Shown here piece by piece: positions 29,883 through 35,742 of a stretch of DNA of 43,761 nt. The stretch spans positions 1 through 43,761 of the forward strand of contig JACNFR010000062.1 of NCBI GenBank assembly GCA_014384555.1. The letters are read 5' to 3'. The stretch's first letter is position 1. Every line of letters starts with the position of its first letter. The DNA is from Candidatus Nitrosopumilus sp. (GTDB taxonomy: Archaea > Thermoproteota > Nitrososphaeria > Nitrososphaerales > Nitrosopumilaceae). The notes beneath the pieces were generated by a model. The model saw nothing but the letters and a program-made list of their open reading frames with translations, ran no database searches and was not told the origin of the DNA. A program made the translations under genes and the position numbers.

Positions 29883-30275
29883 TTAGAATGTCTTCATAGG
29901 GGATTTTTTCAGAGGTTTAATAATTTCAAGAATTTTGAATGGTAATTTACCAAAATCAATTTCTTTTTCACAGGATACCAACAAAACATCGTCATTGTTC
30001 AAAGGAAAACTCATGACAATTACTTTGTCTCTATAAGACATTGAAAAATGAACTTCACCAAATTCAGCATCAAATTCATGTCTCATTCTAACTCGCAAGG
30101 CAAGTTCCATGAACATCATTTCATCTTGTTTTTGGGCCTCTAGTGATAATAGACCATCCTTCATCCCACCGGCTGTAAGATGACCCCTGCTATTGATGAG
30201 CCTAGATGAGCGCATCTTTGGATCTAATTGGATAATTTTTTGACACATTTTTTCAAGTTCATCAACATTGTCCAT
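29883..30275 (-). CDS. Small protein, paralogue of the gene at 35801
   Basis: 130 aa, soluble. It shares a pattern with the protein at 35801-36178: an N-terminal helix, then I/L...G.L.AGGMK.GLL..E (GHLTAGGMKDGLLSLE here), a second helix with MRHEFDAEFG, then YRDKVIVMSFPL and LLVSCEKE near the C-terminus. The two are clear relatives. The strand-turn-strand GxLxAGG resembles the roadblock/LC7 fold used in signalling or polarity modules; that is a guess. I believe such proteins are thaumarchaeal-specific. Upstream of the divergent phaE gene. Confidence 0.75.
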   Translation of the reverse strand: MDNVDELEKMCQKIIQLDPKMRSSRLINSRGHLTAGGMKDGLLSLEAQKQDEMMFMELALRVRMRHEFDAEFGEVHFSMSYRDKVIVMSFPLNNDDVLLVSCEKEIDFGKLPFKILEIIKPLKKSPMKTF

Positions 30276-30296
30276 TAGTCTAATTTAACAATCGAA

Positions 30297-30306
30297 CTAT
30301 TTATTG
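30297..30306 (+). promoter_or_regulatory. TATA-like box for phaE-phaC
   Basis: CTATTTATTG is centred about 27 bases before the GTG at 30329, supporting a leaderless phaEC transcript. Confidence 0.45.
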
Positions 30307-30328
30307 CGATCTGTAATAATAGATATCT

Positions 30329-30904
30329 GTGCAAGCAGATTCATCTAAAGACATTACTGATTATTACAAACATTTGTCGTTATTTTGGACAGATATCATG
30401 CATTTGATGTCAAGTAAGCCGCAAGCGTTGACATCGACAGGACCAATGAGAGCATTTGCGGCTAACTCAAAAAAAGTAACTACAGAGTTAATTGAGATAA
30501 ATGAAGATTTGGTGGGATTCAATCAATATCTTACAGAATATTACAAACAGCTTGCAGATGCATGGGATGTTGCTCAAAAGAAAGTGAATCTAAAAGCTCC
30601 AGAAGTGCCACAAGACGTAGAACAAATTGAAGCATTCAAGAGAATATGGATAGATATTTTCGATAATGATTTCACAGAACTATTTGATTCTAAAAAGTTT
30701 GGAGAGAATTATGGAAAACTCGTATCAAAAGAATTAGAACTAACCAAGCATTGGAATAACATTACAAATGTTGTTTTACAATCAGTTAATCTTCCAAGTA
30801 AAGAAGAGATTGATGAAGTATACAAAGAAATGCATTCATTGAAAAAAAGAGTTGGTAAATTAGAATTAGAATTAAAAAAAAGAGAGATGAAAAAGAATGC
30901 ATAG
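30329..30904 (+). CDS. phaE: PHA synthase subunit PhaE (class III)
   Basis: 191 aa, helical, with a C-terminal coiled coil (VYKEMHSLKKRVGKLELELKKREMKK). It has a PhaE-like region, DAWDVAQKKVNLKAPEVPQDVEQIEAFKRIWIDIFDNDFTELF. PhaE is the non-catalytic partner that activates PhaC in class III polyhydroxyalkanoate synthases. The start is GTG at 30329 with a TATA-like box 27 bases upstream. Its last 8 bases overlap phaC, so the two are translated together. Confidence 0.87.
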   Translation: MQADSSKDITDYYKHLSLFWTDIMHLMSSKPQALTSTGPMRAFAANSKKVTTELIEINEDLVGFNQYLTEYYKQLADAWDVAQKKVNLKAPEVPQDVEQIEAFKRIWIDIFDNDFTELFDSKKFGENYGKLVSKELELTKHWNNITNVVLQSVNLPSKEEIDEVYKEMHSLKKRVGKLELELKKREMKKNA

Positions 30905-31961
30905 TGAATCAAGAATAGATCCAAAAATAATTGAAGAAGTTTTAAAATTTAGTAAAAATGTAATGGATGCACCAAAATTAGTTTCAGCCCCAGACGAAAT
31001 TAGTTTAGAAGTAACGCCACACGATACAGTACAAAAATTAGATAAAACAAGATTACTACATTATAGGCCGCTTACAGAGAAACAACACAAAACACCACTT
31101 CTAATATCATACGCATTAATCAACAGATACCACATTTTAGATATTCAGCCAGAAAAGAGTTGGGTGCGAAATCTACTCGAACAAGGATTTGATGTATACA
31201 TGTTAGACTGGGGAACACCAACTAGTATGGACAAGTATTTGGATTTTGATGATTATGTTAATGGTTATTTGGATGCATCTGTAGAACATATCAAAAATGA
31301 ATCATCAACTGAAAAAATTTCATTGCAGGGATATTGTACTGGAGGAACAATTGCAACAGCATATGCAACATTACATCCAGAAAGTGTAAAAAACTACATT
31401 GCAACAGCACCAGTAATTGATGGATGGCGAGATACTACTGTAATCAGTAATCTTGCCAAGCACATGGATGTTGACAAAATGGTCGATACAATAGGTAACA
31501 TGCCACCAGAATTCATGTATTATTGTTTTTCAGTCTTAAAACCATTTGAGCAAGGAATTGAAAAATATGTGAAATTTTTTAAAAATATAGATAATAAAAA
31601 ATACGTAGATAATTTCCTCAGAGTTGAAAAATGGTTAGGCGACACTCCGCCAATTCCAGGTGAGTTGTTCAAGCAATGGATTAAGGATATCTATCAAGAC
31701 AATCTGTTAATTCAGAATAAAATGTATGTTGGAGGAGAACGTATAGATCTGAAAAAAATAGACATGCCCACATTCACACAAATAGCAGTAGGAGACCATT
31801 TAGTTTCTCCAGAATGTAGTATGCCACTTCATTATGCAATTGGAAGTGAAGATAAAACCTTGAGAATGTATCCAACTGGACATGTTGGAATGATAGCTAG
31901 TTCCTTATCACAGAAGAAAGTTTTGCCCGAGCTAGGAAAATGGTTAGCTGAAAGATCATAA
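30897..31961 (+). CDS. phaC: Polyhydroxyalkanoate synthase catalytic subunit, class III
   Basis: Polymerises hydroxyacyl-CoA into PHA storage granules. 354 aa, the class III size. The lipase-like box GYCTGG has its nucleophile Cys at residue 147; catalytic partners Asp300 (GDHLVSP) and His329 (TGHVGM) are spaced as expected. The N-terminal part carries the conserved RYHILDIQPEKSWV and LDWGTP segments. The start overlaps phaE by 8 bases. Convergent with the phasin genes 34 bases downstream. PHA would store carbon from the hydroxyacyl-CoA pool of the fixation cycle. Confidence 0.95.
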   Translation: MHSESRIDPKIIEEVLKFSKNVMDAPKLVSAPDEISLEVTPHDTVQKLDKTRLLHYRPLTEKQHKTPLLISYALINRYHILDIQPEKSWVRNLLEQGFDVYMLDWGTPTSMDKYLDFDDYVNGYLDASVEHIKNESSTEKISLQGYCTGGTIATAYATLHPESVKNYIATAPVIDGWRDTTVISNLAKHMDVDKMVDTIGNMPPEFMYYCFSVLKPFEQGIEKYVKFFKNIDNKKYVDNFLRVEKWLGDTPPIPGELFKQWIKDIYQDNLLIQNKMYVGGERIDLKKIDMPTFTQIAVGDHLVSPECSMPLHYAIGSEDKTLRMYPTGHVGMIASSLSQKKVLPELGKWLAERS

Positions 31962-31995: not shown

Positions 31996-32424
31996 CTAGT
32001 TTGTTTTTGTAGTGAATGCAGAAATCCAAGATTGTAGAATGTTTTTGTTTAGGTCAGCAAATGATTTTGCATTATCGTTGAATGTTTTGATATTTTGTTG
32101 TGTTGCATCGATAGTTGCAAGAGTCACTTGGTTTTGTATAGAAGCTGCCTTCACAAATTCTTCAGTTGTATCATTAATTACTTTCAATGTTGCTTCAGGG
32201 ATATTTGCTGCAATACCAGATTTCTTTACATATTCTTTTTGTAGTGTGATAGTTGAATCTACTACATTTTCATATGCTTGAAGATATTCCTGTTGTACAT
32301 TAGTAATTGATTGATGATATTGTGGTACTGATTGTTTAATACCGTTGAAGAGTTTGTCAACATTTTCTTGATATACAGAAAATACATCTTTTGGATTTGT
32401 TTGTGTTGTTTCGTTTTTACTCAT
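31996..32424 (-). CDS. Phasin-like granule-associated protein
   Basis: 142 aa, wholly helical with long amphipathic heptad stretches (SVYQENVDKLFNGIKQSVPQYHQ..., QEYLQAYENVVDSTITLQKEY, FVKAASIQNQVTLATIDATQQNIKTFN), no membrane segment or cysteine. This composition and its place beside phaEC indicate a phasin, which coats PHA granules. Its ATG overlaps the stop of the AbrB-fusion gene (ATGA). A GGAGGTG Shine-Dalgarno sits 5 bases before the ATG, inside that gene's last codons. Confidence 0.8.
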   Translation of the reverse strand: MSKNETTQTNPKDVFSVYQENVDKLFNGIKQSVPQYHQSITNVQQEYLQAYENVVDSTITLQKEYVKKSGIAANIPEATLKVINDTTEEFVKAASIQNQVTLATIDATQQNIKTFNDNAKSFADLNKNILQSWISAFTTKTN

Positions 32425-32846
32425 TGTTTCACCTCCTTATTTTTTGATTTTTTTGCTATTGGTAGAATAATGACTTGAACTAAATCACCGTCACCTAAAC
32501 CAAGGGCATTACGTTCAGCTTCAGGAATAGAGATTCGCCCATTACTACTGATAGTAGTTTTGTAAGCACCCCAATTCATGAATGAGGGAAGCATTTGGCC
32601 GATGTTAAACATGGTATCCATACTTTTACTTTGCATGGTCGACATGTTATCCATCATGTTAGATTGAGTTTGTCGAGCACTGTCAGAAACTCCCTTTAGG
32701 GTTTCCAAAGGATTGAATGTTTGGCTAGTTTGATTTGTCATCAATGAACCAAAATTTTTCATAAATTCTGCTTGAGCGCGTCCACTTTTTTGAATCCAAG
32801 ATTTGAACATCTCAGAAGGATCGTATAGGTTTTGATTACCACTCAT
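32421..32846 (-). CDS. Phasin-like/AbrB fusion protein, candidate PHA regulator (PhaR-like)
   Basis: 141 aa. Residues 1-95 are helical and Met/Gln-rich, like a phasin or PhaE N-terminus (MFKSWIQKSGRAQAEFMKNFGSLMTNQT...). Residues 97-130 are a SpoVT/AbrB swapped-hairpin DNA-binding domain (TTISSNGRISIPEAERNALGLGDGDLVQVII). Haloarchaeal PhaR, an AbrB-type protein that binds both PHA granules and the phaRP promoter, is the closest known parallel. A single protein could here sense granules and control the operon. The ATG is 26 bases after a TATA box, so it is the leaderless first gene of a two-gene operon. Confidence 0.83.
   Translation of the reverse strand: MSGNQNLYDPSEMFKSWIQKSGRAQAEFMKNFGSLMTNQTSQTFNPLETLKGVSDSARQTQSNMMDNMSTMQSKSMDTMFNIGQMLPSFMNWGAYKTTISSNGRISIPEAERNALGLGDGDLVQVIILPIAKKSKNKEVKQ
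32430..32436 (-). promoter_or_regulatory. Strong Shine-Dalgarno site for the phasin gene
   Basis: Reads GGAGGTG on the minus strand, 5 bases before the phasin ATG at 32424, and complements the CCTCCT at the 16S 3' end (43711-43716). It lies inside the coding end of the AbrB-fusion gene, so it marks re-initiation for an internal cistron. Confidence 0.75.
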
Positions 32847-32867
32847 AGGTAATGGTTGGAATCATCA

Positions 32868-32877
32868 GTATTTAAAT
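32868..32877 (-). promoter_or_regulatory. TATA box of the phasin operon
   Basis: Reads ATTTAAATAC on the minus strand, centred about 26 bases before the ATG at 32846. A palindromic core (ATTTAAAT) lies at 32870-32877; an AbrB-type regulator could bind here. Confidence 0.6.
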
Positions 32878-32880
32878 GAT

Positions 32881-33693
32881 CTAAACCCCATTAAGGAATT
32901 CTAAAGATTTGGAAGCAAAAGTGTGTGGATCTTGAACATATGGAGTATGACCGCATCCGTCCATTCTAAAAAAGCGACAATCTTGAATAGATGAGATAAA
33001 ACTATCAGAATAACCAATTGGGATTACAGGATCGTCTGAACCCCAAATTATCAGAGTAGGTGTTGTAATAGATCCAAGTTTCGTAGTAATTAGTTCAGAG
33101 TTTTTTAATCCTAAAACAGTAGACATGAATGCAAGTTTTGCATTAGGTAATTGCATTCGCTCAATAAAACCAGTGACAATTTCTTGTGGAATTTCTTCAC
33201 CAGAACCCTCCATTAGCTCAAATGCATTTTTGGCAGTTTGTTCACTAGGATACAATGCAGCCATAACGTATGCATCAAGAGCAGGTGTTGATTGTGTCAT
33301 AGCTCCTGCAGGAGAAACAAGAATAAGTTTCTCAATTTCTTCAGAGTGTGATGAAGTGTAATTAGCTGCAATTTGTCCTCCCAATGAGGAGCCAATTAAG
33401 TTTGGACGAACAATTCCAGATTGTGCAAAAAATTTTTCTAAAAAGTCTGAAAAGAATTCAGGAGTATAATCAAGATGCGGTTTATCACTTAATCCAAATC
33501 CTATTAAATCAGGAACAATTACTCGGTAGTTCTTTGAAAAAAGAGGGATCACACTTAACCATCTTTCAGCTGATGCACCCAATCCATGAAGTAAAACAAT
33601 GATGTTTTTTGAATTGCCTGATTCCAAATAGCGAATTTTATGCCCATCAATTTTAAGAAATTTCTCTTCCACTATTTTAGCAACAATTATCAT
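32881..33693 (-). CDS. Alpha/beta hydrolase, possibly PHA-related
   Basis: 270 aa from ATG 33693. A TTG at 33726 would add 11 residues, but the domain itself needs only the shorter form (MIIVAKIVEEKFLKIDGHKIRYLESG). Serine hydrolase elbow GSSLGG has Ser103; the oxyanion HGLG is at 36-39; WGSDDPVIP and GCGHTPY carry the acid and the His. Such enzymes include esterases, C-C hydrolases and PHA depolymerases. Adjacent to the phasin operon on the same strand, so a depolymerase or thioesterase role is plausible but unproven. Confidence 0.88.
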   Translation of the reverse strand: MIIVAKIVEEKFLKIDGHKIRYLESGNSKNIIVLLHGLGASAERWLSVIPLFSKNYRVIVPDLIGFGLSDKPHLDYTPEFFSDFLEKFFAQSGIVRPNLIGSSLGGQIAANYTSSHSEEIEKLILVSPAGAMTQSTPALDAYVMAALYPSEQTAKNAFELMEGSGEEIPQEIVTGFIERMQLPNAKLAFMSTVLGLKNSELITTKLGSITTPTLIIWGSDDPVIPIGYSDSFISSIQDCRFFRMDGCGHTPYVQDPHTFASKSLEFLNGV

Positions 33694-33797
33694 CACTAGA
33701 TAAGTTTTAATGAATTTGGCGATCAATCACCTAAATAACAAACAAGATTTTTGGAAATAAGAAGTATGTTTTTTAGTATCAACCAAAGTGAATAATT

Positions 33798-34229
33798 GTG
33801 ATCAAAAAGAAAATTTTAAAAATATTGGTCCCATTAGATGGATCTAAAAACTCCACTAGAGGGCTAGAAACGGCAATTACACTAGCTAGAAGTTGTGGAG
33901 CTACAATTACTGGAATTTATTCAATTTACGCACCACCACACTCAGAATTTAGAGGTGTTGGCTCTGTAGAAAAAGCCCTAAACGATAAAGTTAAAAAATT
34001 CATGGAAGAGGCAAAGAATTTAGCTGCTAAAAACGGCATTGTGTTTAATGAAAAGATTGCCAGGGGCGAAATAGGATACAATATTATCAAAATGGCCCAC
34101 GGAAAAGGTAATTTTGATATGATTGTAATTGGATCACGTGGAAGAAGTTCAACAAAAGAAATGTTCTTTGGAAGTGTTTCTAATTATGTAATCCACACAT
34201 CAAAGATTCCAGTAGTAGTTGTAAAGTAA
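33798..34229 (+). CDS. Universal stress protein UspA family
   Basis: 143 aa single Usp domain. VPLDGSKNSTRGLETAI at the start gives the first strand and Asp of the ATP site; the ATP-binding loop GSRGRSSTKEMFFGSVSNYVI near the C-terminus has the G-x2-G-x9-G-S pattern. This makes it an ATP-binding type Usp. The start is GTG at 33798; a TATA-like TTTTTTAGTA about 25 bases upstream supports it. Thaumarchaea carry many Usp copies. No partner nearby. Confidence 0.94.
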   Translation: MIKKKILKILVPLDGSKNSTRGLETAITLARSCGATITGIYSIYAPPHSEFRGVGSVEKALNDKVKKFMEEAKNLAAKNGIVFNEKIARGEIGYNIIKMAHGKGNFDMIVIGSRGRSSTKEMFFGSVSNYVIHTSKIPVVVVK

Positions 34230-34725: not shown

Positions 34726-35742
34726 TTATTCAACTAAAATAATATCTTCTTGGATCAAATATTTGACGGAATTAATGAATTCCTGTTGAGAGATAACTCC
34801 GGTAGCCCACCAATGAGATGTATTTCTAAACCAAGACGGCACATCTTCAGTGGAAAAAGAATTGTAATTGATTCCAGAGATTACAATAATCTTATTTTGT
34901 ATCATGAAATCCAACCCAAGCATAAATTCACTATCAGAAATTTCCCCAGTAGCCCAATTTCTTGCATAATCCTTTATCCAATCTGGAATATAGGTAGAAA
35001 ATCCTAGAATAGAGTAGATTGTTTTTCCAGGAAATTGTGAATCAAACCAAGATTTGTATGATGGCTCATTATTGTATCGGTCAACATAGTATTGTGGGGA
35101 TTTATCAAAAGCAGGAAAATTTTCCACATGGGTAGAAGGATAACCTATAACCTGATCAAGATCATATGATGGGAATTGTGAATCAAACCAAGATTTGTAT
35201 GATGGCTCATTATTGTATCGGTCAACATAGTATTGTGGGGATTTATCAAAAGCAGGAAAGCCAAAAAGTAGCATCTTAGGATTCTCAATAAACGAGTCAT
35301 TAACGTCAGTATTCGGTGTGGATGTTGGCGGTGTGGATGTTGGCGGTGTGGATGTTGGCGGTGTGGATGTTGGCGAAACATACTCAGAGGATTTTCGATA
35401 TTCTATAGATTTCTCTAAATTTCCACCATAAGAAATTTTTATTGTATAATCTCCATTTTCAGACCATGTAGGACCCCCAGCATTAATTATTTTTGTAAAA
35501 GTTCCATCATTGTTTGGAATAATGCTATCAACATGAGCCAAACCAGATCCACTAGGAGTAATGATTTGCACAATTATAGAAAAAAGATCAGGATCATAAT
35601 CAACACTACCAGAAATGATTATAGATTCATTAGTATTGTAAAGTGTTTTGTCAGTAGTAAAATCATTAACGCTTGCAAAAGAAGAAACGAAAAATATTGG
35701 AGACGTAAACAGTAGAAAAATAAAAATCAGAAGGACATTCAT
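34726..35742 (-). CDS. Secreted repeat protein with duplicated segments and W-rich modules
   Basis: 338 aa. Signal peptide 1-23 or 24 (FFVSSFA). Residues 27-116 are an extracellular beta-sandwich domain (DKTLYNTNESIIISGSV...). A Thr/Pro/Ser linker at 124-143 repeats STPPT four times. Two identical 30-residue units (162-191 and 209-238, FPAFDKSPQYY... to ...SQFP) follow, then two W-rich modules, 252-288 and 301-337, ending the chain. There is no C-terminal anchor. It is probably an S-layer-associated or adhesive protein. The duplicated units are identical even in DNA, which suggests recent duplication or gene conversion. Confidence 0.88.
   Translation of the reverse strand: MNVLLIFIFLLFTSPIFFVSSFASVNDFTTDKTLYNTNESIIISGSVDYDPDLFSIIVQIITPSGSGLAHVDSIIPNNDGTFTKIINAGGPTWSENGDYTIKISYGGNLEKSIEYRKSSEYVSPTSTPPTSTPPTSTPPTSTPNTDVNDSFIENPKMLLFGFPAFDKSPQYYVDRYNNEPSYKSWFDSQFPSYDLDQVIGYPSTHVENFPAFDKSPQYYVDRYNNEPSYKSWFDSQFPGKTIYSILGFSTYIPDWIKDYARNWATGEISDSEFMLGLDFMIQNKIIVISGINYNSFSTEDVPSWFRNTSHWWATGVISQQEFINSVKYLIQEDIILVE
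35033..35118. repeat. 86-bp perfect direct repeat, copy 1
   Basis: Identical over 86 bases to 35174-35259. The period is 141 bases (47 codons), inside the secreted-protein gene. No synonymous difference is visible between copies. Confidence 0.95.
35174..35259. repeat. 86-bp perfect direct repeat, copy 2
   Basis: Second copy of the repeat at 35033-35118, encoding most of the FPAFDK... unit (residues 162-191 of the secreted protein). Confidence 0.95.
35315..35374. repeat. 15-bp tandem repeat, four copies
   Basis: GGTGTGGATGTTGGC repeated four times without change; on the minus strand it encodes the STPPT linker. It is a minisatellite that can change length in 5-residue steps. Confidence 0.97.

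Follow-up and report, generated by a model that had tools for sequence, protein, structure and literature searches.

A PhaR-family protein in a Nitrosopumilus archaeon and candidate operator sites at phasin-like genes

The pha cluster and the R protein

The analyzed window, 43,761 nucleotides of a Candidatus Nitrosopumilus genome and contig 80 of its 84-contig assembly, carries PHA genes in a convergent arrangement. On the plus strand lie phaE and phaC (30329-31961), the former encoding a PhaE-like PHA synthase subunit (30329-30904; PF09712 at 44 bits, over the cut-off, start codon uncertain) and the latter a class III PHA synthase (30897-31961; TIGR01836 at 418 bits, cut-off 365). Facing them on the minus strand is a pair of small genes, the first of which, R (32421-32846), encodes a PhaR-type regulator of 141 residues. 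The second, P (31996-32424), encodes a phasin-like helical protein of 142 residues, and its start overlaps the end of R by 4 bp. An alpha/beta hydrolase gene (32881-33726, minus strand; PF00561) is the conserved neighbor upstream of R, and almost every long locus preserves the hydrolase-R-P order facing C-E.

The surrounding DNA holds several other features. Not far from the pha genes is one for a universal stress protein (33798-34229), and such a gene likewise adjoins phaC in Haloferax larsenii (L032:5404-5826). Between phaE and a divergent gene for a 130-residue protein (29883-30275) is a short conserved region (30276-30328), whose core, AATAAATAG/CTATTTATT, could be a two-way TATA element. 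Farther along, positions 34726-35742 on the minus strand encode a protein predicted to be secreted, in which TPPTS is repeated in tandem and a stretch of ~30 residues recurs (two copies of FPAFDKSPQYYVDRYNNEPSYKSWFDSQFP).

The open reading frame that the initial annotation had placed at 32421-32846 is real and runs on the minus strand. Orthologs of R are present in 39 of 61 relatives, which are exactly the 39 with a class III PhaC over the cut-off, their frame being intact nearly always; all 22 others are without both proteins. Most of the 61 relatives belong to one genus and hence are not independent, but the five genomes in four other genera agree. The possibility that relatives with phaEC might lack the protein, raised as a check on the initial regulatory reading, was not borne out, since R occurs in 39/39 PhaC genomes, and the reading is not refuted. 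Of 398 genomes sampled across the phylum, 69 contain R, and every one of these belongs to the taxonomic order of the window's genome. One locus (L086) keeps R without an adjacent P, and no P was found in that genome. A single in-frame stop (TAA or TAG) interrupts some R frames, namely L082:6001-6420 and those of G340, G371, and G267; these are decayed copies or sequencing errors.

The C-terminal part of R, residues ~94-130 (32457-32567, minus strand), forms an AbrB-type DNA-binding domain with the motif GRISIPEAER...GDLVQ. Its score against TIGR01439 is borderline, reaching 26.7 bits in a protein scan and 28.6 bits in a genome search, the latter over the family cut-off of 28.3. A profile of the R family retrieves PDB 2glw_A (E 2.7e-8), and there is a weak match, below the cut-off, to PF04014 (MazE_antitoxin; E 0.0008).

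The phaC matched in Haloferax mediterranei (L031) has no phaR beside it, so the loci of H. larsenii and Haladaptatus were taken for comparison with haloarchaea instead. The PHA clusters of both have the order AbrB protein, phasin-position gene, phaE, phaC. H. larsenii PhaR shares 58% identity with R over 36 residues of the AbrB-type domain (E 9e-15, a single-comparison value), and a second single-comparison alignment of R, to haloarchaeal AbrB proteins, gave E 2e-16. A profile built only from thaumarchaeal proteins (37 R sequences) retrieves three haloarchaeal PhaR at E 2e-16, 5e-15, and 4e-14, and scores two other AbrB proteins at only E 0.01 and 0.015. The R proteins in other families of the same order, at ~100-120 residues, bridge the thaumarchaeal and haloarchaeal groups (FKTTVQSGGRISIPEAER vs FKTRVQSGGRISIPDAER). 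Because the thaumarchaea-only profile selects haloarchaeal PhaR specifically, the relation is one of homology; the initial annotation was right about the likeness and, in calling it a parallel, understated it. By its sequence relationships, R is thus a previously unrecognized member of the archaeal PhaR family in ammonia-oxidizing marine archaea.

The N-terminal half of R is helical in a structure model of low confidence (mean pLDDT 52, too poor for a fold search) and probably contains an internal duplication, in Nitrosopumilaceae, of a helical unit of ~38 residues. Copy 1 (residues 9-36; 32739-32822, minus strand) is conserved in the thaumarchaea-only profile, helical in the model, and matches the single Nitrososphaerales unit; copy 2 (residues ~45-72; 32631-32714, minus strand) is its probable repeat. 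The two copies align with z values of 6.4 to 7.5 in three sequences and 3.9 in a fourth, scores reached by none of 300 shuffles, and a shorter R (L215) has a single unit that matches both copies (z 13.9 and 12.5). Compared with the N-termini of haloarchaeal PhaR, that of R gives z values of 0.2 to 1.8, which are not significant.

The initial annotation had described this region as phasin-like and the whole protein as a phasin-AbrB fusion. That description fails: profiles of R and P have no similarity (hhalign probability 0.5%), and Pfam and NCBIfam searches gave no phasin family match for R. R is therefore no phasin fusion by homology. The N-terminus may bind granules, by analogy with Haloferax PhaR, which has been reported on them (PMC7137286).

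Sites at the promoters of R and of unlinked phasin-like genes

Upstream of R lies a TATA box, ATTTAAATA (32869-32877, minus strand), centered ~27 bp from the ATG, and the R-P transcript is probably leaderless. The TATA box includes the palindrome ATTTAAAT, which had been proposed as an operator core. Its position, 32870-32877, was correctly given, but the operator role does not hold. Of 76 orthologous R promoters, 30 retain the palindrome, whereas 75 retain TTA[AT]A at positions around -30 to -26 relative to the ATG. Nor does the window show any enrichment of the 8-mer (two found vs 6.4 expected by chance). Judged by its position and by what is conserved, ATTTAAAT is the TATA box of the R promoter.

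A different element occupies the interval between the TATA box and the ATG. The candidate operator, ATTCCAACCATTACC(T) (32847-32862, minus strand; ATTCCAACCATTACC itself at 32848-32862), follows the pattern ATTCC-N4-ATTACC and comprises two half-sites whose CC pairs are 10 bp apart. The sequence ATTCCNANNATTACC has one exact match in the 1.39-Mb genome, at this site. Of the 76 R promoters, which are related sequences rather than independent events, 54 have CC pairs at -13/-12 and -3/-2, as against 0 of 279 controls. A TTACC or GGTAA no more than 20 nt from the start is present in 61/76 R promoters and 7/272 controls. The control promoters were taken from the same loci and stand in for a genome-wide promoter statistic. 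Conservation summed over the R spacer is not exceptional, some of the controls reaching similar values, so that the evidence for an operator is the specific register of the half-sites. On this evidence the two 10-bp-spaced half-sites are likely an operator. R promoters of Nitrososphaerales, outside Nitrosopumilaceae, are without a clear half-site pair. In a pelagic clade (L063, L067, L075, L082, L086, and L091) the start region of R reads TTGGTAATG, where an inverted TTACCAA overlapping the start codon replaces ATTACC.

The genome has two paralogs of P away from the pha cluster, P2 on contig 49 (G000:C49:60636-61046, L149; 44% identity) and P3 on contig 28 (G000:C28:25578-25961, L150; 30% identity). 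P is modeled as a helical protein (pLDDT 81), and a fold search with this model gave no match at an E value of at most 0.001. Phasin_2 is matched weakly by four of 26 family members, and no family match lies over the cut-off. We therefore call P phasin-like from its context, its helicity, and the weak Phasin_2 matches only.

Just upstream of its TATA box, the P2 promoter carries two TTACCA repeats with a 10-bp period, CATTACCACT CATTACCAAT, and is the only place in the genome with the exact arrangement TTACCA-N4-TTACCA. Across the genus, TTACC repeats, mostly two or three in tandem, occupy this position in nearly all of the P2-type promoters that were examined; the P3 promoter has no TTACC-type site. 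A strict search of 61 genomes for TTACC-N5-TTACC-N2-9-TATATA returned 22 distinct sites in 20 genomes, against one for the reversed control, and all 22 precede P-family genes, 21 of them intact and one with a broken frame. These include a site in another family of the order (G043), ahead of a gene for a 189-residue protein judged P-like from its sequence. A looser genome scan for the TTACCA pair, allowing two mismatches, was no richer than its reversed control, and only strict matches were therefore counted.

The sites follow the phasin gene. In a Nitrosotalea relative, P is gone from the R operon (L119), whose promoter lacks half-sites, and is found at another locus (L146), where three TTACC-type repeats stand before TATATA. 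In G027 neither R nor PhaC was detected, yet the repeats at P2 are kept; a missing contig could explain this lack.

Proposed mechanism and alternative readings

Taken together, we consider it likely, with some room for doubt, that R is a thaumarchaeal PhaR that responds to PHA and controls several phasin genes. The homology, the co-occurrence, and the conservation of the sites were computed here; R as the protein occupying the TTACC sites, repression as its effect, and granule binding as the signal are what we infer. The initial annotation had proposed an AbrB-type regulator governed by the PHA state, a core that the PhaR homology and the co-occurrence with PhaC support; it named the operon promoter, and the predicted regulon is wider than the operon, including unlinked phasin paralogs.

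In the mechanism we propose, free R would bind pairs or arrays of TTACC-type half-sites, whose 10-bp spacing puts them on one face of the helix. At the R-P operon these sites fall between the TATA box and the start; at the unlinked phasin genes they come right before the TATA box. R bound there would hinder assembly of the basal transcription machinery. Once granules form, R would be drawn off the promoters to the granule surface via its helical N-terminal units, and the output of phasin and of R itself would then be proportional to that surface. In the fullest version, ammonia-oxidizing archaea would have a PHA-state regulon under a single PhaR whose helical N-terminal module is doubled. This PhaR would govern the R-P operon through the site beyond its TATA box and several unlinked phasin genes through 10-bp-spaced TTACCA arrays abutting TATA, the granule surface titrating it off many promoters at once. 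We regard this version as slightly short of an even prospect. Counted against this best explanation are the repeats without R in G027 (a mild objection), the unclear pair in Nitrososphaerales, the siteless P3, a second AbrB protein in the genome, the nonsignificant comparison of the R N-terminus with haloarchaeal ones, the R without P of L086, and the sites upstream of TATA at P2, from which activation is also thinkable.

The position of the P2 sites is also the starting point for an unlikely, though not negligible, alternative in which R activates the unlinked phasin genes by recruiting TBP/TFB just upstream of TATA and represses its own operon from the downstream site. The two placements differ in just this way, and the unrelated bacterial PhaR of Ralstonia eutropha is reported to repress phaP1 and activate phaP3 (PMC12849132). 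The P2 array, however, lies ~3-4 bp from TATA and could equally block TFB, and Haloferax PhaR represses phaRP (PMC9049629). A somewhat less probable reading assigns the TTACCA arrays to another protein, leaving R as a PhaR homolog that regulates its own operon only or is mainly a granule protein. The genome does encode another AbrB-type protein that scores above the family cut-off, a 66-residue frame on contig 65, which is the main rival for the DNA-binding step; G027, where R was not detected, keeps its repeats at P2; and the site at the R promoter is a degenerate version. Against this reading, the same 10-bp register recurs in R's own promoter, and the strict sites occur only at P-family genes, in genomes where R is present as well.

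The combination of a helical N-terminus with a DNA-binding domain would also suit a protein that mainly tethers PHA granules to the nucleoid, as bacterial PhaM or PhaF do, binding DNA for granule placement. L086, with R but no adjacent P, and the reported PhaP-independent promotion of PHA synthesis by PhaR in Haloferax (PMC9049629) point the same way, but precisely placed, conserved sites at phasin promoters fit transcription control and a tether needs none, which makes this role improbable. Finally, two small genes overlapping by 4 bp, one of them with an AbrB domain and a weak PF04014 match below the cut-off, might suggest a MazE/AbrB-type toxin-antitoxin pair. We give this hardly any credence and reject it on the pha context and the P family: the AbrB domain lies at the C-terminus and its grouping is with PhaR, P belongs to a multicopy helical family with no match over the cut-off, and the pair is fixed beside phaEC while P paralogs are encoded elsewhere in the genome.

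Comparison with known systems

Nitrosopumilus-type archaea are major oceanic ammonia oxidizers. N. maritimus has been reported to contain PHA, its proteome including PhaE and PhaC (PMC11082331); that study included the PhaR orthology group, yet its list of six PHA genes in N. maritimus SCM1 is without PhaR. Literature searches returned no regulator of PHA storage for Nitrosopumilus-type archaea, no paper with both AbrB and Nitrosopumilus, and, for phasin with ammonia-oxidizing archaea, no title on thaumarchaeal phasins. The PhaR family and its regulatory logic are known from haloarchaea; what these searches did not find described is a PhaR in thaumarchaea, the doubling of its N-terminal unit, and an operator candidate shared by several phasin genes. 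The reach of archaeal PhaR thereby extends from haloarchaea to a second phylum. With a likely regulator, phasin-like paralogs, and a candidate operator at single-base resolution now named, transcriptional control of carbon storage in these archaea becomes testable with purified protein and short DNA.

The closest known system is PhaR of Haloferax mediterranei (Cai et al. 2015), as described in reviews (PMC9049629, PMC7137286, PMC10948481). Haloarchaeal PhaR sits on PHA granules and represses phaRP, whose expression in Haloferax is higher in the presence of PHA and whose promoter activity rises on deletion of phaR (PMC7137286, PMC9049629). Like R, it has a C-terminal AbrB-type domain with the same GRISIP[ED]AER core, and its gene is directly followed by one in the phasin position and has class III synthase genes beside it, the order AbrB protein-phasin-phaE-phaC being also that of the reviews (PMC7137286, PMC9049629). 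Its promoter, like that of R, has repeated elements, four tandem repeats having been reported (PMC9049629). The H. larsenii phaR promoter, too, has ACCAT-like repeats. Its elements (L032:2495-2556), TACCAT-TGCCAT and ATGGTA-ATGGGA spaced ~10 bp apart, are possibly the haloarchaeal counterpart of the TTACC sites. The thaumarchaeal system differs in that phaEC runs toward R-P instead of following it on the same strand, the R of Nitrosopumilaceae has two copies of the N-terminal unit, and the candidate targets include unlinked phasin genes; P, moreover, has no detectable similarity to haloarchaeal PhaP (no BLAST match).

Bacterial PhaR of the Ralstonia and Paracoccus type belongs to what we take to be a different protein family, and Pfam and NCBIfam searches gave R no match to the bacterial PhaR families. 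Its described logic is nevertheless the one proposed here for R: phaP is repressed, and the promoter is left once granules form (PMC3079617). Bacillus subtilis AbrB and archaeal AbrB-like proteins (TIGR01439; PDB 2glw, 2l66, and 5itm) share with R the AbrB-type swapped-hairpin domain but, unlike R, have no link to PHA, and they score at an E value of only ~0.01 on the R profile. The AbrB motif is TGGNA, which resembles TGGTAAT, the reverse complement of ATTACCA.
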